IMG/VR virus record: IMGVR_UViG_3300022602_000095
Coordinates: 1-62,503 of that record
Direction: 5' to 3' (one strand)
Length of the DNA: 62,503 nt
Source of the DNA: a virus
The position numbers and the translations under genes were made by a program. Positions 5,925 to 61,114 of the stretch are shown piece after piece. Position 1 is the stretch's first letter. Each line of letters opens with the position of its first letter. The notes under the pieces were generated by a model. That model was not told where the DNA came from and made no database searches. It was given only the letters and a program-made list of their open reading frames with translations.

Positions 5925-6191
5925 ATGAAAAAAGCTAAGATTGAGGATGTACTCAATACAATCTCCGAACTTAGTAGGAGGAGGGAAGAGAGAGATAATC
6001 CTTACCGTAAAGTAAACGAACTTCAATCTATTATAGGAAGTACAATCAATGGCGTATATCCTAGCCTTCAGGAAGCCATTAACATTAGATACAAGAAGAT
6101 TAAAGAAGAAGTTGATGGACTAAAACCTATTCGTAAACCTTTTAGTAGCGGGATGGAGGATGAGATGCTCGTAAGAGAGTATGATTGGTAA
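5925..6191 (+). CDS. Hypothetical early protein, possible paralogue of the 8552 gene
   Basis: An 88-residue basic/acidic helical protein (MKKAKIEDVLNTISELSRR). The 8552-8809 product aligns by eye over most of its length (SELxxxxEE..., a central hydrophobic patch, YxxIKEEVDGLKPI versus YNNVKKEMDTFEPL), so the two may be diverged duplicates. It has its own leaderless promoter. Function unknown. Confidence 0.6.
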   Translation: MKKAKIEDVLNTISELSRRREERDNPYRKVNELQSIIGSTINGVYPSLQEAINIRYKKIKEEVDGLKPIRKPFSSGMEDEMLVREYDW

Positions 6192-6200
6192 TAGTAAAGC

Positions 6201-6236
6201 TTGAAATTCCTAATTAAATTCCAATAGAATAATAGT
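6201..6236 (+). promoter_or_regulatory. Early leaderless promoter for the 6237 gene
   Basis: -35 TTGAAA (6201-6206), 18-nt spacer, -10 TAGAAT (6225-6230), 6 nt to ATG. Confidence 0.7.
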
Positions 6237-6437
6237 ATGAAAATTGAACTAGAGATCTCAAACGACGAGGTAAAAACAATCATCGAAGCATGTAAGGATC
6301 AAGGGATTGATGTTACTGTAGATGACGTGAAGGAACAGTTAGAGGAATGGTTTCATGCTACAGTAGAGGACTATAATGAACCGAGGATGGATGACATCAT
6401 TAGCTCCCTAATTGATCTAGCTGACAATCCTTCCTAA
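6237..6437 (+). CDS. Hypothetical acidic early protein
   Basis: A 66-residue strongly acidic protein (MKIELEISNDEVKTIIEACK). The acidic surface would suit a protein-binding or DNA-mimic role, but nothing specific supports that. The next gene starts immediately after its stop. Confidence 0.65.
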   Translation: MKIELEISNDEVKTIIEACKDQGIDVTVDDVKEQLEEWFHATVEDYNEPRMDDIISSLIDLADNPS

Positions 6438-6605
6438 ATGAATTACGACGTTACCGTCTATGATCTAGAAGGAAATGAAGTAAAGAAGTTCTATAACTTC
6501 AATGATATAGACGCCACAAACATGTATAGTTACTACGTTACTAACGATGACTATGTAGTAAAAGTAAAAGAGACAGAGTTATTCTATAGTCAAAAAGACA
6601 GATAA
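6438..6605 (+). CDS. Small early protein, all-beta
   Basis: A 55-residue protein (MNYDVTVYDLEGNEVKKFYN...) with alternating strand-like residues, starting directly after the upstream stop with no gap. No domain recognised. It is the last gene before a 400-bp non-coding stretch. Confidence 0.55.
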   Translation: MNYDVTVYDLEGNEVKKFYNFNDIDATNMYSYYVTNDDYVVKVKETELFYSQKDR

Positions 6606-6972
6606 AATAAGGAAAAAGAGTTAGTTTTAAGTAAAAAAATAAGAAAAGACTAAGAAAGTTAGTCTAGACTAACATTTATAGTATAAGACAACATAGTATC
6701 TTACGTAGAAGTACGAATAACTATTAGCCCTGATTAACTATTAAAAGCGCACGGATTCTACAGCCCCGTTGAGGGAGAAACTGAAGCACCTATACTAAAC
6801 AGACGTAGATAATAGAGAAAGAAATATAGAAATTCTATTGTTTCTCCGGAGAGAGTGAGTTCTAGTAAGTCCTGCGAGTATTAAGAGTAGTCCCTCCCCA
6901 CTCCCGGAAGCTCCAGCAGAAACTTTCCCGCGACCAAACTGCATCATCTACGGCAAAAACGGTTTTATTGTA
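6606..6972. other. Non-coding stretch with a perfect 16-bp palindrome
   Basis: No ORF with a supported start is seen. It contains the palindrome GTTAGTCTAGACTAAC (6659-6674), a smaller palindrome ATAGAAATTCTAT, and a C-rich segment (about 6895-6935). It does not read as a tRNA. It could hold an RNA, an operator or an origin; no specific function can be assigned. Confidence 0.5.
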
Positions 6973-25907: not shown

Positions 25908-27434
25908 TTAGAAGTAAACAGACTGAGTAGCAGGCGTAAATGCTGTACTGAGACCCTGAAGAATAATGACGTGGTAATAAAGATTCGCACCGAAGATGTT
26001 ATCTACAACGCCATAACGGGTTAATAGACCAACACGTGGTGAGAAATCGTTAGGACCGATGGTACGCTGAACCATTACAGGGATGTAAGGGCAGTAGATG
26101 ATACCAGTGTCATAGAACTCAGGCCCCTTGTAACCAAGGAGTGCGTAGTCAAGGCGTGTTGTACGAGTGCTATTGGCGGGGAAACCACCTTTACCACCGA
26201 AGTTACCTCCGGCGTTAGCCTCGAACTGTGCCTCTGTACGTGTGTCACGATAAACATTAAAACGACCGGCCAATGAGCCTACCTTTGCAACACCAACGGG
26301 CTGTGTATTTACTGAACCCTGTACTGGTACCCACTGGAATTCAGGGAGCATTTCTAGGATTGCGCAAACGCGAGGTGTACCAACTACGAAGTTGGCGGAA
26401 CCACGGCGGTTACGTACAGCGATACGATTAGCCTCAATGATGAGTCTCTGATAGAAGTCACGATTACGCTCAACGAGCCAACGACCATCGGCTGAAGCAG
26501 GATTCCAGATTGAGAAGCCTACGCCGTAACCGGCGTTAAGGGCTGTCTGAATCATACGGATGATCATTTCACGGTCGATTTCGGCCTGAAGCTCATATGA
26601 CATAGCATTTGTGAGCTCAGTATCGATATCGATACCGTTCATGTTCTTAAGATCCTGTTCAAGCTCAACGGACCAGCGAGCTGCAAGACGGCGTGTGCCG
26701 GCTTCAACTGCTGTCTTCTCAAAGCTGACGACGATCTGTGGGATGTTACTGCTTAACTCAAACTGGCTGAGTAATGCTGCAACGCCCTGATCTTCAACAG
26801 GAATGACGAAGGATGAACCTGCGCCTAAACCGGAGAGAGACTGTGAGCTCGCACCTGTGAAGGCTGTGTTGAGGTACTGATAACCTAATTCTGGGTTAGC
26901 TGAGAGGGCATTGTTTGCATTACCAGCATACTGTTGTGTGCTGGAAGCATCAAGGGAACCTGTCTGATAACCAAGTGAGGTTGGTTCGTACTTATAACGG
27001 AGTGCAAAAGCAAGACCGACTGGGCCACTCATTGGCTGAACACCAACAATCTCGTTTGTTATGAGTTCAGGGAATGTACGTCTGATCATCGGAATGAGGA
27101 TCTTAGGGAGACGAGCGTCACCGGAAGCATAAGCTGAATCGTTCTGTGATGGGAACTGATTGCCATATGAACCTGCGCCACCTGTTTCACCACCGAAAAC
27201 GCCACTACCTGCAACGCCGTAACCGCCAGCTGTGCCGCCGGATTGGTTTGAGGCCTCAAAGCACCACTTCTCTTGGTTCTCAAGGAGGATAGCGGTGTTT
27301 AAGCGTGTGTGGTCGTCTTCAATTGCGCGAACGTTGTTGGATGTGTAATCCAATACTGGACTCCACTTCTCAAGCAATGTACGCGCACTTCTCTCATCGA
27401 TGTAAGACTGTGAAGGACGGATTGATTTTGACAT
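25908..27434 (-). CDS. gp23: gp23-like major capsid protein
   Basis: A 508-residue protein (T4 gp23 has 521). The N-terminal part (LLEKWSPVLDYTS) is typical of T4-like capsid proteins, followed near residue 60 by KWCFEAS, a candidate gp21 cleavage site, and a Gly-rich linker. SYGNQFPSQNDSAYASGDAR (residues 89-108) and IPMIRRTFPELITNEIVGVQ follow. The C-terminal half contains RVCAILEMLPEF and other shell-lattice segments. It carries a longer leader than most late genes here. Residues about 89-113 are echoed in the 60869-61114 protein. Confidence 0.9.
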   Translation of the reverse strand: MSKSIRPSQSYIDERSARTLLEKWSPVLDYTSNNVRAIEDDHTRLNTAILLENQEKWCFEASNQSGGTAGGYGVAGSGVFGGETGGAGSYGNQFPSQNDSAYASGDARLPKILIPMIRRTFPELITNEIVGVQPMSGPVGLAFALRYKYEPTSLGYQTGSLDASSTQQYAGNANNALSANPELGYQYLNTAFTGASSQSLSGLGAGSSFVIPVEDQGVAALLSQFELSSNIPQIVVSFEKTAVEAGTRRLAARWSVELEQDLKNMNGIDIDTELTNAMSYELQAEIDREMIIRMIQTALNAGYGVGFSIWNPASADGRWLVERNRDFYQRLIIEANRIAVRNRRGSANFVVGTPRVCAILEMLPEFQWVPVQGSVNTQPVGVAKVGSLAGRFNVYRDTRTEAQFEANAGGNFGGKGGFPANSTRTTRLDYALLGYKGPEFYDTGIIYCPYIPVMVQRTIGPNDFSPRVGLLTRYGVVDNIFGANLYYHVIILQGLSTAFTPATQSVYF

Positions 27435-28773: not shown

Positions 28774-29436
28774 CTAGAGTTTAGATAAAAACGACAAGAT
28801 TTGCTCTTTTAGGAAAAAGGCAACATCGTGTTTGGGTAAACCGCGAATGCTCTTTTCAAAAGATTCATATACTTCTTCAAGTTTGCCGTCCATACCAAGA
28901 ACATATTGTTTTGATTCAAGAATACCGTTAACAAAAGCTTTAGGGCAACTCGGATCAGCAACACAATCAACAGCAATAAGACGCATTTCGTTTACACGAT
29001 TAATACCATCAGACTGCTCTTCAAGCTGACCAAGGGCACGACTTGACATACCAACCTTAACACCGTCGTTAATAAGTGATCGTACAATCTGACCAACAGG
29101 TGTTGATAATACAATTGATTCACCAATAATAATATTACCATCCTTACGTAAGGAAGTAACCATATGACAGGCTCTTTCAAGATCAACTTCTGCTGAAGCA
29201 GGATGATTTAATTCACCTAACGCGCGCTTTGGTATAACCATTTCCTGAACGTAACGATTAACTTCACGCTCCATATCAGACTCTGTATAGATTCTTTTGT
29301 TCTTATTAACTTCTTCGCAAGCCATATAAGGTCCACGAATTTTCATGATTGACTGGCCCTTTATATTTTTTTGCTCTTCGATATATTCGAACTGCTCTTC
29401 TGAGGCCGGTGTTTCAACTAGTAATCTAAGTGACAT
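28774..29436 (-). CDS. gp21: gp21-like prohead protease
   Basis: A 220-residue serine protease of the T4 gp21/herpesvirus-like fold. GPYMACEEVNKNKRIY precedes ALGELNHPA with catalytic His78, and GVKVGMSSRALG carries catalytic Ser131 or Ser132. It matures capsid and core proteins after (L/I)-x-E. Its own N-terminus SLRLLVETPAS contains L-V-E, suggesting self-cleavage. AATAAATA (29442-29449) lies 5 nt before ATG. It is likely to cut the many propeptide-bearing proteins in this window. Confidence 0.9.
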   Translation of the reverse strand: MSLRLLVETPASEEQFEYIEEQKNIKGQSIMKIRGPYMACEEVNKNKRIYTESDMEREVNRYVQEMVIPKRALGELNHPASAEVDLERACHMVTSLRKDGNIIIGESIVLSTPVGQIVRSLINDGVKVGMSSRALGQLEEQSDGINRVNEMRLIAVDCVADPSCPKAFVNGILESKQYVLGMDGKLEEVYESFEKSIRGLPKHDVAFFLKEQILSFLSKL

Positions 29437-51823: not shown

Positions 51824-52214
51824 GAGATTTTAGCTCTTCAAGTGCTCGTAATACAGCATCGTTAGCTTGATGTATATCATCACTTGATTGATCTTTAATT
51901 ATAGGTGTAAAGTTAGTATTCACTTTACTATCTGGTATAAGGTTATGTTCAGCAGCTACTTTAGATAGTGTTGCTTGGAGCTGATGTATAAGAGGATCAG
52001 GCTCTCTTTCAATGAGAGAGCTTGGATTTAAATTTGTAGATAATCTTGTTACAGCAACACTACCAACGGGTTTAACCTGGGTATTATAAATGTCACCAAG
52101 CTTTTGATTGTTATTAACAATTGAATCAATAAATTCAGGAGCAAATTTACCTTGTATTTTAAAATGATCCGATATTTCACCGCCATACTGCTGTTGCAGT
52201 GTTTCAGCGTTCAT
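51810..52214 (-). CDS. Hypothetical protein
   Basis: A 134-residue protein (MNAETLQQQYGGEISDHFKI...) with a flexible Asn/Pro/Ser-rich middle and a helical C-terminus (NDAVLRALEELKSL). It overlaps the queD stop by 4 nt and the PhoH end by 14 nt. No domain recognised. Confidence 0.55.
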   Translation of the reverse strand: MNAETLQQQYGGEISDHFKIQGKFAPEFIDSIVNNNQKLGDIYNTQVKPVGSVAVTRLSTNLNPSSLIEREPDPLIHQLQATLSKVAAEHNLIPDSKVNTNFTPIIKDQSSDDIHQANDAVLRALEELKSLNEI

Positions 52215-52897
52215 CGTCCCCAGCTAGTACCGCCAAAGAAATTTGAATAACCTGATGTTACAGGGTTACGTAATGGTACCGGGCCATTTTTTGGCTTGTC
52301 AGGTGATGACGGTGCTGGAGGAGTTTCAATAGGATATAAAATTTGTTCAGTAGCTTGATGTTGTGGTTCAGTATTGACTGCATCAATAGGTGTAGCTTCT
52401 ATAGGTGTTGTATATGTCGATTGAATCGGTGTAGTATAACTTGTTGAATATGTAACCGGACGCTGTTCGCCGTAAATAGCAGAATTTGCTTCATGTTCAA
52501 ATACTTCAACTTTTTCAACCCAACACCGATCACCATAATTATTTTTAAGCCATGTTGTAGCTGCTTTAAAGCAAAATTCAGCAGTCTTTTCAATACCTAC
52601 AGAATCCATAATGCGAAGGTCACATCCTCCCATATTGTGTAAGTGTTGAAATATTTCAAGCAATGGATCATCACTCGCAACACATAATGTGTGATCAAAT
52701 TGATGTTGTAGTTCAGCCTTTAATGTTTTAAGACTAGCGAAGTCAACAACCCAGTTTTTTTCATCAAGTGATGATGCTGAAAAATAAAATTTAGCTAATA
52801 ATTGATACCCGTGAATTTTTGAACAATGTGAAGTAGCTCTCCATTGTCTAAAGGCACAAGATCCAAGTTCGATAAGTTTAGTACTCTGATAACTCAT
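52211..52897 (-). CDS. queD: QueD-like 6-carboxy-tetrahydropterin synthase
   Basis: A 228-residue protein. Residues 1-140 are the 6-PTP synthase fold: FRQWRATSHCSKIHGYQLLA (His24, catalytic Cys25, His29), WVVDFASLKTLKAEL, FDHTLCVASDDP, and KVEVFEHEANSAIYG. The usual C-x3-H-G-H reads C-x3-H-G-Y here, so one expected zinc ligand is a Tyr. A Thr/Pro-rich tail of about 75 residues (140-228) is extra and looks unstructured. The enzyme makes the precursor for QueE. Early leaderless promoter at 52898-52931. Confidence 0.85.
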   Translation of the reverse strand: MSYQSTKLIELGSCAFRQWRATSHCSKIHGYQLLAKFYFSASSLDEKNWVVDFASLKTLKAELQHQFDHTLCVASDDPLLEIFQHLHNMGGCDLRIMDSVGIEKTAEFCFKAATTWLKNNYGDRCWVEKVEVFEHEANSAIYGEQRPVTYSTSYTTPIQSTYTTPIEATPIDAVNTEPQHQATEQILYPIETPPAPSSPDKPKNGPVPLRNPVTSGYSNFFGGTSWGR

Positions 52898-54531: not shown

Positions 54532-54537
54532 ATGGTT

Positions 54538-55188
54538 ATGTCTGAATATACAAAAGTTGTTAAGCTTAAAGAAGCTAACGGTAATCATCCACGTACAGAA
54601 GATGAAAAGAGGGCTATTATTGAAAAGGCTGCAGCAGCATACGAAGTTTACCTCGATGCTCTTGGATTCGAGTGGCGTAATGATCCTAATAGCTCTGGTA
54701 CCCCACTTAGAGTAGCTAAAGCATTTGTTAATGATCTAGCTGCTGGATGTTATGAAAATCCTCCTAAGATTACATCGTTTCCAAGTAACGGGTATGATGG
54801 TATGGTATTTCAAGGAGGTATTCCTGTCAAATCAATGTGCAGTCATCACCATTTAGCGTTTACAGGGGTTGCGCACGTTGCATATATCCCATCAAAAGAA
54901 GGTCGAGTAATTGGTCTTTCAAAGCTTAATCGTATTGTAGAGCATTATGCTCGTAGACCTCAGATTCAAGAGTCGATGACAGTACAGATTCATACAGCTA
55001 TTAATGATGTATGCGAATTAAATGACGGTGTGGCAGTGGTAGTAAGCGCTACCCATACCTGCGCGTGTTTACGTGGAGTAAAGCATGATGGTTGCGAGAT
55101 GAAGACATCTAAGCTTTCCGGTGACTTCCTTGATGATGCAGCAACAAGGGCAGAGTTTTATAACTTTGTTGCTGATATGAAAAGCTAA
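54538..55188 (+). CDS. folE: FolE, GTP cyclohydrolase I
   Basis: A 216-residue enzyme. Promoter spacing points to ATG 54538 rather than 54532. VKSMCSHHHLAFTGVAHVAY has Cys101 and catalytic/zinc His residues, RVIGLSKLNRIVEHYARRPQ-IQE and AVVVSATHTCACLRGV (second zinc Cys) are diagnostic. It opens GTP to dihydroneopterin triphosphate, the first step towards 7-deazaguanine bases and towards folate. With QueD, QueE and QueF it lets the phage boost preQ1 supply. Early promoter. Confidence 0.95.
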   Translation: MSEYTKVVKLKEANGNHPRTEDEKRAIIEKAAAAYEVYLDALGFEWRNDPNSSGTPLRVAKAFVNDLAAGCYENPPKITSFPSNGYDGMVFQGGIPVKSMCSHHHLAFTGVAHVAYIPSKEGRVIGLSKLNRIVEHYARRPQIQESMTVQIHTAINDVCELNDGVAVVVSATHTCACLRGVKHDGCEMKTSKLSGDFLDDAATRAEFYNFVADMKS

Positions 55189-55595
55189 ACACCCTGCTTT
55201 ACATCTACTAAAGCGTTGAGCCGTTTAATAAACGGCTCTCCTATTAATATTTGCTGTTCATTATCAGCGCGATCAGCTATACTAAAAGTGATATCTTTAT
55301 AATGTTTATTCTTTAAAGTAATATCGAATACAACCGTTGGGCGGCTCTCGATGTTACCACTACCAATATTAATATCAATATTGCCAGTGCAAGGGAGTGT
55401 AATTTTTTTATCATTAATAGTAGTAAAGGTTACGGTATCATCTCCGTTGTGTTTAATGTCTACACCGTGTAGTACATTATAAGCTTCATTACCACTATCT
55501 ATCTTAGCAACAACAGATCCAATCCCATCTATTGTTATATATTCTGTAACTCCAAGAATAGGTCTACTTTGTGTAAAGTCTTTAAATGTTTTCAT
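55185..55595 (-). CDS. Retropepsin-like protease (RimB/PF05618-like) with propeptide
   Basis: A 136-residue protein. SVVAKIDSGNEAYNVLHGVD has the aspartic-protease-like D-S-G, and ESRPTVVFDITLKNKHYKDI then FSIADRADNEQQILIGEPFI-KRL-NALVDVKQG match the RimB/ATP-dependent-zinc-protease-like retropepsin family. The N-terminus MKTFKDFTQSRPILG resembles the capsid-targeting starts of its neighbours, although no clear (L/I)-x-E is present. It may trim packaged or host proteins on entry (inference). Convergent with folE, overlapping 4 nt. Confidence 0.65.
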   Translation of the reverse strand: MKTFKDFTQSRPILGVTEYITIDGIGSVVAKIDSGNEAYNVLHGVDIKHNGDDTVTFTTINDKKITLPCTGNIDINIGSGNIESRPTVVFDITLKNKHYKDITFSIADRADNEQQILIGEPFIKRLNALVDVKQGV

Positions 55596-55601
55596 ATAAA
55601 A

Positions 55602-55850
55602 TTATTTTTTCTTCCAGGAAATTCTTTTTGAACTCTTTTTCTTGTTCTTACTACTGTTACACATTGCCATTGTTGGGCGACATGCTGGGTACCCGCGTCT
55701 CTTCTCACCTTTCTGTCTACCACAAGGTTTACCCGTCTTGCAATCTACCCATCCCTTACCATGATTACGTGCAAACCAGCCATGGAGACCTTCTTTCTTT
55801 TCCTTCTCAAAGCCTTCTAATATAAGATTGACTAGGTTATCGAATTTCAT
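55602..55850 (-). CDS. Basic Cys protein with propeptide (GWVDCKTGKPCGR family)
   Basis: An 82-residue, strongly basic protein. MKFDNLVNLILEGFEKEKKE contains I-L-E-G. GKGWVDCKTGKPCGRQKGEK-RRGYPACRPT is a recurrent Cys motif recalled from phage and giant-virus proteins, probably zinc- or nucleic-acid binding. It ends KNKKKSSKRISWKKK. Likely DNA-associated in the head. Start overlaps the 55847 gene stop (ATGA). Confidence 0.65.
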   Translation of the reverse strand: MKFDNLVNLILEGFEKEKKEGLHGWFARNHGKGWVDCKTGKPCGRQKGEKRRGYPACRPTMAMCNSSKNKKKSSKRISWKKK

Positions 55851-55999
55851 TTCTTTTTCCAGATCTTACCTTGGCGACATTTTACTACAGCACCGGACTT
55901 ATAAGCTGATGTTTTACTACCGTATACTGCATCAGCTCTACGTAAACAACGATCACGCTTAACCTTTTTTTCGGTAAGAAATTGCTTGAAAGTTAGCAT
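55847..55999 (-). CDS. 50-residue basic protein with propeptide
   Basis: MLTFKQFLTEKKVKRDRCLR then ADAVYGSKTSAYKSGAVVKC and RQGKIWKKK. The first ten residues are nearly identical to the ligase-like protein at 57578 (MITFKQFLTE), a strong hint of a shared targeting signal. GGAG lies 6 nt before ATG, but inside the upstream coding sequence. It overlaps both neighbours (ATGCTAA upstream, ATGA downstream). A short basic Cys protein, probably DNA-bound in the head. Confidence 0.65.
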   Translation of the reverse strand: MLTFKQFLTEKKVKRDRCLRRADAVYGSKTSAYKSGAVVKCRQGKIWKKK

Positions 56000-56304
56000 T
56001 TCCATCTCCTTCTTGCTGCGCAACCACGTGTATTTTTACCTGCACAACCACCAGCTGGTATCCAGGCTCTACTTCTAGCACAAAAACTCTTTCTACGCTT
56101 TGAAGCCTTTGATCCCTTCTTAACTTTACCTGTTACAGGTGCTTTAAGATGAGATCCAGTCGCACGATTATATTTCGCTCTACCTTTAGCTGTTAAGCCA
56201 CCACCACGACTTACAGGTAATTTTTCACCTCGTTTAATTGAAAGGCTGAGTCCATTCTTTTCTTCCAATACTTCAATGAAGCGCGATTCAAACAAACTTT
56301 GCAT
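55993..56304 (-). CDS. Basic Cys-rich protein with propeptide (KYNRATGS family)
   Basis: A 103-residue protein. MQSLFESRFIEVLEEKNGLS contains L-E-E. GLTAKGRAKYNRATGSHLKA and PVTGKVKKGSKASKRRKSFC-ARS match a small basic family (KGRAKYNRATGSxLKxPV) recalled from phages and large DNA viruses. It ends with GGCAGKNTRGCAARRRWKC. Probably DNA- or metal-binding. GATAAATA (56310-56317) is 5 nt before ATG, so the first of a late, tightly overlapped operon. Confidence 0.7.
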   Translation of the reverse strand: MQSLFESRFIEVLEEKNGLSLSIKRGEKLPVSRGGGLTAKGRAKYNRATGSHLKAPVTGKVKKGSKASKRRKSFCARSRAWIPAGGCAGKNTRGCAARRRWKC

Positions 56305-56958: not shown

Positions 56959-57576
56959 TTATTTCAAATTCTTTCTTATATCATCAAAAAGAACTCTTGC
57001 CTCATCTTCAGGCATCCCTGTAGGTAAAATCTTTTTAAACGCTGTAAAATCTCCTAGTTTAGCCAAATTACGTGCTTTGGTAGCGCTTATTCCCGACGCA
57101 TCATCACTATCTGGATCACGGTTCTCACCAGCTACAGCTGTCTTAAAGCTTGTTAAATTTAAACGCTTTTCAGGATCTGGATTATTAATATATTTGTTAA
57201 ATAAAGCATCATACTCAGCTGCACGGTCACTACCACAAACAAGTGTTAAATCTTGATAACCACTATCAATTAAGAATTGCACAGCGTCAAAGATTGTTTT
57301 AATTTTATCCGAATCAATAAAATTAACTTGCGGCAATGTAGCATTCAAAGCTTTCATCTTATCTGAATACGGAATAGGGTTCTTTTTTGCATCTTGAGTC
57401 TTTGTAACAACTACAAAGGTATCTGCTTTCTCCTGTCTTCCTACTTCAACAGCTTTTGCTATTAATAATTCATGTCCAAGAGTAGGTGGATTCATTCTAC
57501 CAAAAACAAATACAGCTTTTGTATTTGTCGGCTTAATATCAGAAATAATCTTCTCAACAAGTGTTTTAAAGCTCAT
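56959..57576 (-). CDS. HIGH-motif nucleotidyltransferase with propeptide
   Basis: A 205-residue protein. ATG 57576 is chosen over 57633 because it follows the upstream stop by 1 nt and yields the MSFKTLVEKI targeting-like start with L-V-E. KAVFVFGRMNPPTLGHELLI has the T-x-G-H motif of the HIGH superfamily, LTLVCGSDRAAEYDALF and SGISATKARNLAKLGDFTAF (ISxTxxR) complete it. The closest families are NMN or pantetheine-type adenylyltransferases or glycerol-3-phosphate cytidylyltransferases; substrate unknown. Confidence 0.7.
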   Translation of the reverse strand: MSFKTLVEKIISDIKPTNTKAVFVFGRMNPPTLGHELLIAKAVEVGRQEKADTFVVVTKTQDAKKNPIPYSDKMKALNATLPQVNFIDSDKIKTIFDAVQFLIDSGYQDLTLVCGSDRAAEYDALFNKYINNPDPEKRLNLTSFKTAVAGENRDPDSDDASGISATKARNLAKLGDFTAFKKILPTGMPEDEARVLFDDIRKNLK

Positions 57577-57577
57577 A

Positions 57578-58693
57578 TTATGATCCAAATTTTTCTGCAC
57601 CTGCCTCACCACCACCAACACCATATGGTGCACCTACAAAAATTGTTTTATTATTTGTTATGGGATCTGGGTATCCTGAATAATCATCATCTCCTAATAA
57701 TGCATTAGTACTTGTCATGCCTTCAAGTTCTTCATCATCTTCTCTTTCTTGAGCTCCAAATTTCGAGCTCATGAAATGCGGACTATTTACCTTAAACATT
57801 AGATCGCCAGCCTTAATAACATATCCCTCAATATCACCAAGAAGACCTTCAGTCTTAAGAAGATTATTAACAATCTTTGTATACATCTGTTTTTGTATAG
57901 GTAAAAGCTTTTCATTAATCTTAGATTCAAGTTCTTTTCTACGCTGAACAAGCTTGTTGCGACCAGGTCCACCAATAGCAATTTGATCTTTTAACTCCGT
58001 TAGTTCCTGTTCTATCTTAGTTAAATTACTAAGAGCCTTCTGTGCATTTAGTAATTCAGGTCTAAGATCAATTGAATGAAAAACATTAACGTTAGGTAAA
58101 ATAAATTTTACCTCCTTATCATTAATAGATGTTAGTTTCTTGATGATCGAAGCGGCATTAGTACCCTCTTCTCCTTGTACATTAATAACAATAAATGTCG
58201 ACCAAGTACCTAATCTATCCTTATTATATTGTGCAACAACAAAACTTACTTTTCCGGAATTAGGATCTGCTTCGAGTGCATTAGGTGAATAGAGCCATTC
58301 AAGTTGAACAGTAACATTATGCTTACCGATAATTGGACTAATTAAATGCTTAATGCGTTCAAAGCTATTCATAAACGCCTGGCGAGCTGGTGGATATTTA
58401 ATAGCAGTTATAAAATCTTCAGGTTTATATACTTTACCTGAATAGCTTGAGCGTACAAAAAATCCATTCTCGTCATTGCCAACCTTAAGAGCCATACCGT
58501 CAACTTTCTCTGTTACAGTTGAATTCTCAGGTGTAATCATTCCCTTGTTTTGCTGTAAATAGCTAACAAAGCGTTTAAAGTTATCTATACTCATTGAGTA
58601 TAACTCCGGCTTATTTTGGGAATAAAGATGTTGGATACCTACTCTATCACCCTCTTTTGGTGCTTCTGTTAAAAATTGTTTAAATGTAATCAT
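57578..58693 (-). CDS. ATP-dependent ligase-like nucleotidyltransferase with propeptide
   Basis: A 371-residue protein. MITFKQFLTEAPKEGDRVGI carries L-T-E-A. TEKVDGMALKVG contains K63-x-D-G (motif I nucleophile), VQLEWLYSP has E132 (motif III), DIEGYVIKAG has E289-G and K294 (motif IV), and LMFKVNSPHF the motif V-like K301. This is the covalent nucleotidyltransferase (DNA/RNA ligase) core. The acidic C-terminal tail (REDDEELEGMTSTN) and a long coiled region (220-275) are extra. Linked by ATGA to the next gene. Confidence 0.75.
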   Translation of the reverse strand: MITFKQFLTEAPKEGDRVGIQHLYSQNKPELYSMSIDNFKRFVSYLQQNKGMITPENSTVTEKVDGMALKVGNDENGFFVRSSYSGKVYKPEDFITAIKYPPARQAFMNSFERIKHLISPIIGKHNVTVQLEWLYSPNALEADPNSGKVSFVVAQYNKDRLGTWSTFIVINVQGEEGTNAASIIKKLTSINDKEVKFILPNVNVFHSIDLRPELLNAQKALSNLTKIEQELTELKDQIAIGGPGRNKLVQRRKELESKINEKLLPIQKQMYTKIVNNLLKTEGLLGDIEGYVIKAGDLMFKVNSPHFMSSKFGAQEREDDEELEGMTSTNALLGDDDYSGYPDPITNNKTIFVGAPYGVGGGEAGAEKFGS

Positions 58694-59385
58694 AAAAATG
58701 TATGTCCTGTTGTTACTTCTGCGTCTTTTACAATTTCCTTCGCCTGAGCAGAGCCATATATTTGTACAAGCTTCTTAGTAATTGTCTGTATATTATTTAA
58801 ATCTTTAGCAGTAGAATTTTTATCAAAAATTGCTTTTGCAATTATATCAGGATCTCTAGAGATGAGTTGTTTTGTTTCTCTACTGAATAGACCGTTTGTC
58901 GATAACGTAAGTCCTTTATGTTTAGCTATAGCTGATAAAAGGATATTTCTATCCCTACCCTTAAAGGGAACTTGTTCATTAGCTGCATAAAAGAATTTAA
59001 GATACTCAGGATCGTCATGGAACATAAAATCTACCTGTACAAAATTACCTGTCATCTTACCTTCTTTATTCCAAACTGGCGATAAGAAGTGTACTGATAC
59101 TCCTGATTTTTTTGTGCCTATAATATCGTTATTATTTTTTTTCCAGAATTCTTGCAATTTACTCTCCAAGGTTGCCTTACTAATAGTTTTTGCATCAACA
59201 ACAAGATCTATATCGCCAGAATCAGCAGCTCTGCCTGTTGTACCAAGCATATTATTTAAAAGTGGAAGACCGGTAATTCTCTCAAGATGCCGTACTGTGG
59301 GTACGACGTCTTCACGAGATATACGGCCTGTATCTGTAAATACATTGCCACCTTCTTTTAAAATATATGACTTAAAGGTTAACAT
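58690..59385 (-). CDS. Pol-beta-type nucleotidyltransferase with propeptide
   Basis: A 231-residue protein. MLTFKSYILKEGGNVFTDTG has L-K-E-G. LGTTGRAADSGDIDLVVDAK has the catalytic pair D58 and D60, and NFVQVDFMFHDDPEYL supplies the third Asp (D119). PFKGRDRNILLSAIAKHKGL is a downstream helix typical of the family. Enzymes of this fold add nucleotides to proteins, RNA or antibiotics. Together with the ligase-like and HIGH-type genes it forms a three-transferase cassette. Confidence 0.75.
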   Translation of the reverse strand: MLTFKSYILKEGGNVFTDTGRISREDVVPTVRHLERITGLPLLNNMLGTTGRAADSGDIDLVVDAKTISKATLESKLQEFWKKNNNDIIGTKKSGVSVHFLSPVWNKEGKMTGNFVQVDFMFHDDPEYLKFFYAANEQVPFKGRDRNILLSAIAKHKGLTLSTNGLFSRETKQLISRDPDIIAKAIFDKNSTAKDLNNIQTITKKLVQIYGSAQAKEIVKDAEVTTGHTFL

Positions 59386-59824
59386 CAGTCTTTAAGTAAG
59401 GATCTTGCTTATTCATGGCCGCAAGTATCTGCTTATATTTGTTTATAAAGTTACCCGTATTAATACTATTGATAAACTTCTTAACATTAATATTATCCAA
59501 TCTTTCAGGATTATCAGCATACATTTCGTTTTGTTTAATAGCAGCTTCTAAGGCTGTCTGCATTGGAAATGCATTTTCTGCTGTAATATCTGTTCTATAA
59601 ATTTCATCCAAAGCACCTGGTGGAAAAGTCATTGCAGCTGCTTTTGATAAAAGATTAACAAGCCCTACATAACCCTCAGGAGCAACTTGCGCTACGGTAT
59701 TATCGGTAGGTGCTGGTGCATTAGGATCAGGCGCTGTAGCATCAGGCGCTGCAGCATCAGCTGATGTGTCATCTGCTTCATTAAGAACTGACCATTCCTT
59801 GTTAATTTTATCGATAAATTTCAT
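59372..59824 (-). CDS. Acidic Ala/Pro/Asp-rich late protein with propeptide
   Basis: A 150-residue protein. MKFIDKINKEWSVLNEADDT has L-N-E-A. Residues 18-45 are Ala/Asp/Pro low complexity (AAAPDATAPDPNAPAPTD). The rest is helical (GLVNLLSKAAAMTFPPGALD). It overlaps the nucleotidyltransferase start by 14 nt. CTAAATA about 6 nt before ATG suggests late expression. Function unknown; perhaps a scaffold for the cassette. Confidence 0.55.
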   Translation of the reverse strand: MKFIDKINKEWSVLNEADDTSADAAAPDATAPDPNAPAPTDNTVAQVAPEGYVGLVNLLSKAAAMTFPPGALDEIYRTDITAENAFPMQTALEAAIKQNEMYADNPERLDNINVKKFINSINTGNFINKYKQILAAMNKQDPYLKTDVNL

Positions 59825-60431: not shown

Positions 60432-60857
60432 CTATAAATTATAATTTGCAAGCTCTTGTTTTGGAGCTTTTCCTATTCTTACATTACATATACCATTATA
60501 ATAATCATCTCTTAAAAGTACATCTTCACCTAGCTGTTCTTTTATTTCATAATAAGCTAACGCCCATTTAGAGTTACAAGTACGTAGAATCTTAAAAATA
60601 AATTTATCTTTACCGTGCTTTATTATATCCGCATTTAATTCATTAGATGAACTGGTATATGTCTTCCAATCAGATTCTTTGTGTTCAATACGACTATTTT
60701 TCCTACCCTTAAGAGGCTTGCGTTTTATACGGCTTGTACATTGCTTCTTACCGATGTATTTCTTATTATTAACAGTATTAACAATCAAATAAATAAAACC
60801 AAAGGTATCTTCTGTTATAACAACACCTTCATTCAATAACCAATGACCACTATCCAT
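60432..60857 (-). CDS. Small GIY-YIG nuclease
   Basis: A 141-residue protein. GFIYLIVNTVNNKKYIGKKQ is the GIY-YIG motif; HKESDWKTYTSSSNELNADI and KFIFKILRTCNSKWALAYYE (with Arg and Glu) complete the nuclease core. It is short and lacks NUMOD repeats, like widely shared phage GIY-YIG proteins rather than a homing enzyme. The start HWLLNEGVVITED contains L-N-E-G, so it too may be a packaged protein. ACTATC-TACATG-GATAGT around the ATG could form a small hairpin. Confidence 0.75.
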   Translation of the reverse strand: MDSGHWLLNEGVVITEDTFGFIYLIVNTVNNKKYIGKKQCTSRIKRKPLKGRKNSRIEHKESDWKTYTSSSNELNADIIKHGKDKFIFKILRTCNSKWALAYYEIKEQLGEDVLLRDDYYNGICNVRIGKAPKQELANYNL

Positions 60858-60868
60858 GTAGATAGTTA

Positions 60869-61114
60869 TTACACACCTGATAAACGTCTACGTTTAATAG
60901 GTACTTTAACTTTTTTCTTTCTACCTGTCGCCTTAGCACCTAATATAGCAGGCATTCTTGCGTCCCCAGGTGCATAAGCATTATCATTTTGTGAAGGAAA
61001 TTGATTTCCATAATTACCTGATGTTACAGGTCCTGTTACCGCGCCAGCGCCTCCTGCAATGTTGGCAGCCATTTCAGCTAAAAGTCTATCTACAAGTGTA
61101 TTGAAATTGCTCAT
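60869..61114 (-). CDS. Capsid-peptide mimic with basic tail
   Basis: An 81-residue protein. MSNFNTLVDRLLAEMAANIA has L-A-E, a gp21-type site. After a Gly/Ala linker, GNYGNQFPSQNDNAYAPGDA-RMPAIL (about residues 33-58) is almost the same as SYGNQFPSQNDSAYASGDAR-LPKIL in the major capsid protein (residues 89-113).  The end (GRKKKVKVPIKRRR) is strongly basic. It may bind the same partner as the capsid arm and tether DNA (inference). No homologue recognised otherwise. Confidence 0.65.
   Translation of the reverse strand: MSNFNTLVDRLLAEMAANIAGGAGAVTGPVTSGNYGNQFPSQNDNAYAPGDARMPAILGAKATGRKKKVKVPIKRRRLSGV

Follow-up and report, generated by a model that had tools for sequence, protein, structure and literature searches.

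The window analysed here is the whole of IMG/VR virus record IMGVR_UViG_3300022602_000095, a stretch of 62,503 bases from a freshwater T4-like phage that carries three linked enzyme genes. These encode a PolX-like protein, a ligase-like covalent nucleotidyltransferase with a KxDG motif (hereafter the KxDG protein) and a nucleotidyltransferase of the HIGH superfamily (hereafter HIGH). To judge by their sequences, the three form one functional unit. We speculate, at a probability of about 0.5, that this trio is a head-packaged gap-filling and nick-sealing module for incoming phage DNA, which is our best reading of it. A first-pass annotation of the same DNA had held that no phage system with this exact set was known, and this holds in the open PMC literature. 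The parts are known: a cytidyltransferase with DUF6267 in cyanophages, and RlaP with an RNA ligase in jumbo phages (PMC7824862).

The annotation had also proposed a coordinated system, possibly inside the virion, and this idea now finds support in gene fusions, packaging tags, a head protease and the detection of relatives in virions. Three different metagenome records encode PolX, a DUF6267-type KxDG domain and HIGH as a single open reading frame (ORF): L083 (941 aa), L084 (875 aa, at a contig end) and L108 (886 aa), with L083 and L084 93% identical and L108 63%. The E-values of these triple fusions are about 1e-34 to 1e-36 for PolX, about 1e-18 to 1e-23 for DUF6267 and 6e-5 to 1e-7 for HIGH; they were taken from seed-only profiles that exclude the fusions, since E-values from iterated profiles are inflated by the presence of these sequences in the profile. 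PolX-DUF6267 fusions occur on more than 30 contigs (L032 and others), many of them near-copies, and DUF6267-HIGH fusions lie beside an opposite-strand PolX in L067-L073. In L074 and L114, PolX is fused to a KxDG protein of the window type (E 2e-65 and 2e-58), with HIGH next to it. Fusion has joined PolX to two different KxDG families, DUF6267 and the window type, and a PolX tree requires four changes in the DUF6267 fusion, at least two of them forced by well-supported branches.

Most PolX loci were collected in a single motif-based scan of IMG/VR, and many of the contigs are fragments or near-copies. Among 43 non-redundant loci, KxDG is fused to PolX in 16 and lies within 2 kb in another 16 (32/43 in total), with three jumbo-phage KxDG assignments based on motif plus profile comparison. 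HIGH is fused in 2 of the 43 and lies within 3.5 kb in 14, the distant types of L003 and the phage immuto being excluded. The triplet is kept in related phages, even in fused form, and its order and spacing recur in independent IMG/VR contigs far above chance expectation. Its slots are also refilled by distant homologues, as for HIGH in L003, L021 and L074. Similarly, a DUF6267-type KxDG protein stands beside a window-clade PolX in L022, L023 and L025, where all three proteins have an M[KI]xFxxxF...E-type start and the genes overlap by 4 nt. In L112, whose clade is otherwise triple-fused, a GIY-YIG-like ORF (6137-6754) separates HIGH from the PolX-DUF6267 fusion; a homing endonuclease may have split the set there.

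In the window itself, the layout first described, three consecutive minus-strand ORFs with three nucleotidyltransferase folds, was confirmed. The PolX and KxDG genes overlap by 4 nt (58690-58693), and 1 nt separates the KxDG stop codon from the HIGH start codon at 57576. An alternative GTG start for HIGH at 57633 was rejected as spurious, orthologues beginning at the equivalent of the ATG. Catalytic residues are kept on alignment in all three proteins. The two outcomes that the annotation had named as refuting its proposal, loss of these residues and lack of conservation of the triplet in relatives, were thus both absent. Upstream, the gene of an acidic partner overlaps PolX by 14 nt, and its product is without a family match in Pfam and PHROG scans. 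Megablast of the trio region found no DNA match in GenBank phages, tblastn with the KxDG protein of the window as query found none among phages either, and the T4 late-promoter octamer TATAAATA is no more frequent than expected by chance.

The protein first labelled a pol-beta-type nucleotidyltransferase turns out, on Foldseek and Pfam evidence, to be PolX-like rather than generic. Its AlphaFold2 model, of moderate confidence (predicted local distance difference test, pLDDT, 71.8; shallow alignment), looks like the palm and thumb of a family X DNA polymerase. All of the top 50 PDB matches in Foldseek are family X enzymes (Pol lambda, mu, beta and TdT; best E 3.3e-4, probability 1.0), and VIA-align, whose top matches are likewise all or nearly all from family X, places the model on Pol mu with Z 8.5, at 3.8 A over 122 residues. 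Pfam matches stay below cut-off (DNA_pol_B_palm, E 0.0013 in 2/29 members; thumb, E 0.031 in 3/29). Across an alignment of 29 divergent sequences, D58, D60 and D119 are invariant, and the G..G...GDxD motif and third Asp occur without exception. The palm is preceded by some 20 residues, and we use the name PolX-like because this palm-thumb core lacks the 8-kDa and fingers domains of full-length Pol beta; PolX of African swine fever virus (ASFV) likewise has no 8-kDa domain (PMC5330486). When bacterial and archaeal genomes were searched with the PolX profile, no relative was confirmed, a weak negative given the single peptide pattern used. Pfam and PHROG scans returned no family of its own, and the protein seems to represent a phage-specific PolX-like family without an entry in either collection.

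Two further features accompany PolX genes elsewhere. A second, very divergent PolX-like paralogue adjoins the first in L045 (4944-5963), L066 (2571-3707) and L054 (1-1452). In L030, L031, L042, L044 and L081, the gene directly upstream of PolX, which in most of them overlaps it, encodes a HAD-type hydrolase (DMDGVLADF or a close variant) whose start is tag-like; similar HAD genes occur near the sets of immuto (_183) and HTVC008M. The hydrolase upstream of PolX is a possible end-cleaning phosphatase.

The KxDG protein has motifs I (KxDG), III (E), IV (EG) and V (K) of covalent nucleotidyltransferases and polynucleotide ligases. Residues K63, D65, G66, E132, E289, G290 and K301 are invariant in ten window-type sequences, as are KWDG, EG and the motif-V Lys in 14 DUF6267-type sequences; the shortest members stop about 15 residues or less past motif V. 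Profile comparison links the window type to DUF6267 (probability 82) and to a jumbo-phage group (88), and the jumbo group to DUF6267 (42), against less than 5 for unrelated and less than 1 for column-shuffled profiles. These values point to a distant kinship of all three groups.

The ligase-like protein also brings in the main rival, packaged RNA repair, which we consider possible and clearly less probable than DNA repair. An Rnl-type KxDG protein and the PolX-like protein would mend tRNAs cut by abortive-infection nucleases of the host, the latter adding nucleotides back to RNA ends, a role proposed for RlaP. Indeed, the best Pfam match of the window KxDG protein is RNA_ligase (Rnl2-like, PF09414; E 4e-5, 24.3 bits against a cut-off of 27), which 7/10 members match. 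The second BFVD match of its model is an 'RNA ligase' of Atu_ph07 (probability 0.93, 324 aa); the KxDG protein that stands next to PolX in Atu_ph07 is also 324 aa long, the identity of the two being unconfirmed. Jumbo phages pair a Pol-beta nucleotidyltransferase with an RNA ligase (PMC7824862), and the five loci with HAD hydrolases adjoining PolX would also suit RNA repair. However, profile searches do not identify the polymerase as RlaP (PF10127): that identity was rejected, with 0/29 members matching at E<=1 and none in the window, the control genomes being positive. The fold of the polymerase matches DNA PolX, and a PolX-like protein in place of a generic nucleotidyltransferase favours DNA as the substrate. 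RNA repair further leaves HIGH without a role, and we know of no precedent for RNA repair that acts at injection and not later.

HIGH carries the (H/T)xGH and ISxTxxR motifs of its superfamily and a GxD motif; GR..xGH, D117 and R169 are invariant across 16 sequences. The window protein scores above the cut-off for Pfam CTP_transf_like, which 14/16 members match, and it also matches phrog_3041/395. Its similarity to nicotinamide mononucleotide (NMN) adenylyltransferases (NMNAT) is weak (phrog_3462, E 0.0075; NMNAT chains, E 0.06-1). PDB sequence searches with alignment profiles A1, A2, A4 and A6 found nothing meaningful, and A7 gave weak HIGH/NMNAT matches. Superfamily membership and this faint likeness would suit a role in nicotinamide adenine dinucleotide (NAD) or nucleotide metabolism, with HIGH as an NMN adenylyltransferase and the trio countering NAD depletion or supporting NAD-dependent ligation. 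We regard this as unlikely. What speaks against NAD salvage is that NadV, the partner that makes NMN, is missing from the tested phages in which HIGH adjoins KxDG: none was found in C48C1, HTVC008M, Melnitz, S-CAM9, Syn19 or the L006 and L112 contigs, the last two of which may be fragments. Records that do bear NadV have HIGH elsewhere or only weakly, the NAD-dependent ligase profile has no match in the genomes of the KxDG protein, and NAD metabolism offers no role for PolX.

In T4, capsid-targeted internal proteins bear tags that gp21 cuts at (I/L)xE. Of 42 loci, 31 have Glu, 9 the start Met and 2 Lys immediately before the GGNVF motif of PolX, and where Glu is present, I or L stands two positions before it in nearly all. 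This Glu-or-Met dichotomy would be expected if a T4-type head protease cuts off the tag. Starts with an x-E site had been reported on all three proteins; they are clear for PolX and KxDG in the window, whereas the HIGH N-terminus there (MSFKTLVEKIISDIK) has no clear tag and its relatives in L003, L021-L025, L074 and cyanophage S-SM1 do. N-terminal x-E tags occur in 12 of 16 genes in the 53-62.5 kb block and in 10 of 68 elsewhere (Fisher p=6e-6). The S-SM1 HIGH protein, T4-GC190, begins MKKFSAFLNE before A, and its gene overlaps the DUF6267 gene T4-GC71; it was found in purified virions by mass spectrometry (PMC3037559). For the PolX of PA5oct, the record lists detection in the virion by electrospray ionisation tandem mass spectrometry. 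Head packaging is well supported, and for the window phage itself we infer it.

Two alternatives turn on the tags. The enzymes could work inside the cell, in repair or nucleotide metabolism, with N-termini that are merely tag-like and no part in the virion. HIGH does lack the tag in the window, and the pattern is matched by some other window genes; yet the Glu-or-Met dichotomy, the enrichment in the block and the virion detection of relatives make this very improbable. Conversely, the trio could be host-takeover modifiers that, once injected, attach nucleotides to proteins or RNA of the host, following a logic like that of T4 Alt. Packaging tags and virion presence would be expected of such modifiers, as of T4 internal proteins, but the PolX palm-thumb and the ligase-type active site point to polynucleotide substrates and family scans show no similarity to known AMPylators, so that we think this quite unlikely. 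Of the RNA, NAD or protein-modifying roles first suggested for the trio, RNA repair stays a live rival, NAD is disfavoured for want of NadV, and protein modification is without evidence.

The tagged block as a whole looks like an internal-protein island. It includes small tagged proteins, mostly basic, that resemble T4 internal head proteins (window 55602-55850, 55993-56304 and 60869-61114), and a retropepsin-like aspartic protease-like protein (55185-55595; weak PF05618 and Asp-protease matches). Retropepsin-like ORFs in L001 (8718-9251) and L004 (6121-6654) start with a tagged extension (MLTFKQF...E).

As a repair module, the trio would work as follows. Tags would direct the enzymes to the prohead and be removed by the T4-type head protease; from the capsid, the enzymes would reach the host cell with the phage genome. 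There, the PolX-like protein would extend or fill 3' ends and the KxDG protein would seal the join. HIGH might activate or supply the nucleotide for sealing, which is the weakest step of the proposal. Incoming phage DNA that has gaps, nicks or breaks would thereby be repaired before phage gene expression. Enzymatic activity, DNA substrate, timing and the role of HIGH are the steps that we infer.

Several observations weigh against DNA repair. The nearest relatives of the KxDG protein are RNA ligases and not DNA ligases, and it lacks the C-terminal oligonucleotide-binding (OB) domain and motif VI of classical ATP- and NAD-dependent DNA ligases. Its AlphaFold2 model is poor (pLDDT 53.8; shallow alignment), and the weak PDB matches of this model include T4 Rnl1, LigD and Rnl2, none of them significant. 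In VIA, terminal uridylyltransferase (TUT)-type nucleotidyltransferases score close to PolX (7.6 against 8.5). Several of the 43 PolX loci have no KxDG detected nearby, and eight Kyanoviridae tested have DUF6267 and HIGH with PolX in 0/8. To our knowledge, textbook accounts of gap repair include no HIGH enzyme.

DUF6267, the KxDG protein of T4-like cyanophages, occurs in 471 phage records. Profile searches detected neither an ATP- nor an NAD-dependent DNA ligase in five complete Kyanoviridae that carry DUF6267, which fits the report that cyanomyoviruses lack a g30-type DNA ligase (PMC2984593). DUF6267 is a candidate for their missing ligase. In PA5oct, Atu_ph07 and Phosso, PolX lies beside or near KxDG, and a HIGH is elsewhere in the genome. 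The idea that cyanophages and L054 encode a PD-(D/E)XK nuclease in their upstream tagged gene was dropped for want of Pfam support.

A bolder and rather doubtful extension of DNA repair would make the trio a virion-delivered, three-activity machine for healing nucleic-acid ends, of a class previously undescribed, with DUF6267 as the ligase that cyanophages lack. HIGH would, speculatively, adenylylate the 5'-phosphate end, in chemistry like that which turns NMN and ATP into NAD; PolX would rebuild the 3' end, and the OB-less KxDG ligase would join the two, all on one polypeptide in some phages. If repair on injection is correct, many phages of aquatic and jumbo kinds deliver a finished set of repair enzymes together with their DNA, which would counter damage by sunlight or host nucleases before any phage gene is expressed. 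DUF6267 would gain a testable function, and the absence of g30 from cyanomyoviruses would be addressed. The natural polymerase-ligase-HIGH fusions may have value as tools.

The features of the window are collected in Table 1. Outside the trio, the ORF at 60432-60857 is a GIY-YIG nuclease of the SegE type, and the name 'NAD synthetase' given to its family, PHROG 447, looks misannotated; the record of phage immuto also has the name 'NAD synthetase' (immuto_170) near its PolX gene. Genes for GTP cyclohydrolase I (54532-55188) and a QueD-like (6-pyruvoyl-tetrahydropterin synthase) protein (52211-52897) suggest a 7-deazaguanine or pterin pathway in the window phage.

Table 1. Trio genes, predicted tags and head genes, in window positions.
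Feature	Position	Strand	Details
HIGH-superfamily nucleotidyltransferase	56959..57576	(-)	205 aa; start ATG 57576
KxDG covalent nucleotidyltransferase, ligase-like	57578..58693	(-)	371 aa; helical insert, without a domain past motif V
PolX-like protein (palm and thumb as in family X DNA polymerases)	58690..59385	(-)	231 aa
Acidic tagged partner	59372..59824	(-)	150 aa; tag MKFIDKINKEWSVLNE before A; conserved upstream of PolX in orthologous contigs
KxDG head-targeting tag	58664..58693	(-)	MITFKQFLTE before A, from sequence; orthologues keep the tag
PolX-like head-targeting tag	59353..59385	(-)	MLTFKSYILKE before GG; Glu or start Met before GGNVF in 40/42 loci
Head maturation protease (T4 gp21 type), presumed processing enzyme	28774..29436	(-)	phrog_207, E 1.2e-51
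Major head protein (T4 gp23 type)	25908..27434	(-)	phrog_138, E 3.5e-81

Set beside known systems, the trio most resembles several at once in part. With T4 internal proteins it shares a short tag ending in xE before G or A, a head maturation protease in the genome, small tagged neighbours and relatives detected in virions; the T4 cargo, however, is Alt and IPI-III, and a polymerase-ligase-HIGH trio is undescribed there. Bacterial LigD combines a polymerase and a ligase on one polypeptide for end joining in non-homologous end joining, as the fusions here combine theirs, but its polymerase family and ligase type are others, it has no HIGH domain and it is not packaged.

Among viruses, ASFV likewise has a minimal PolX and a viral ligase for gap repair, the latter an error-prone DNA ligase (PMC5330486, PMC6344480). 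It differs in being a eukaryotic virus with separate genes and a classical DNA ligase, and in having neither HIGH nor a T4-type tag. The RlaP and Rnl of jumbo phages (PMC7824862) also link a Pol-beta-fold nucleotidyltransferase to an RNA-ligase-type KxDG protein; the trio is set apart by a PolX-type fold with no RlaP profile match, by packaging tags and by fusion to HIGH. Finally, the cyanophage pair of DUF6267 (PF19782) and cytidyltransferase (T4-GC71 and T4-GC190) differs in that the eight Kyanoviridae tested are without PolX and their HIGH often has long C-terminal extensions. Like the trio, however, it has a KxDG protein that adjoins or overlaps HIGH, and its GC190 is present in the S-SM1 virion.

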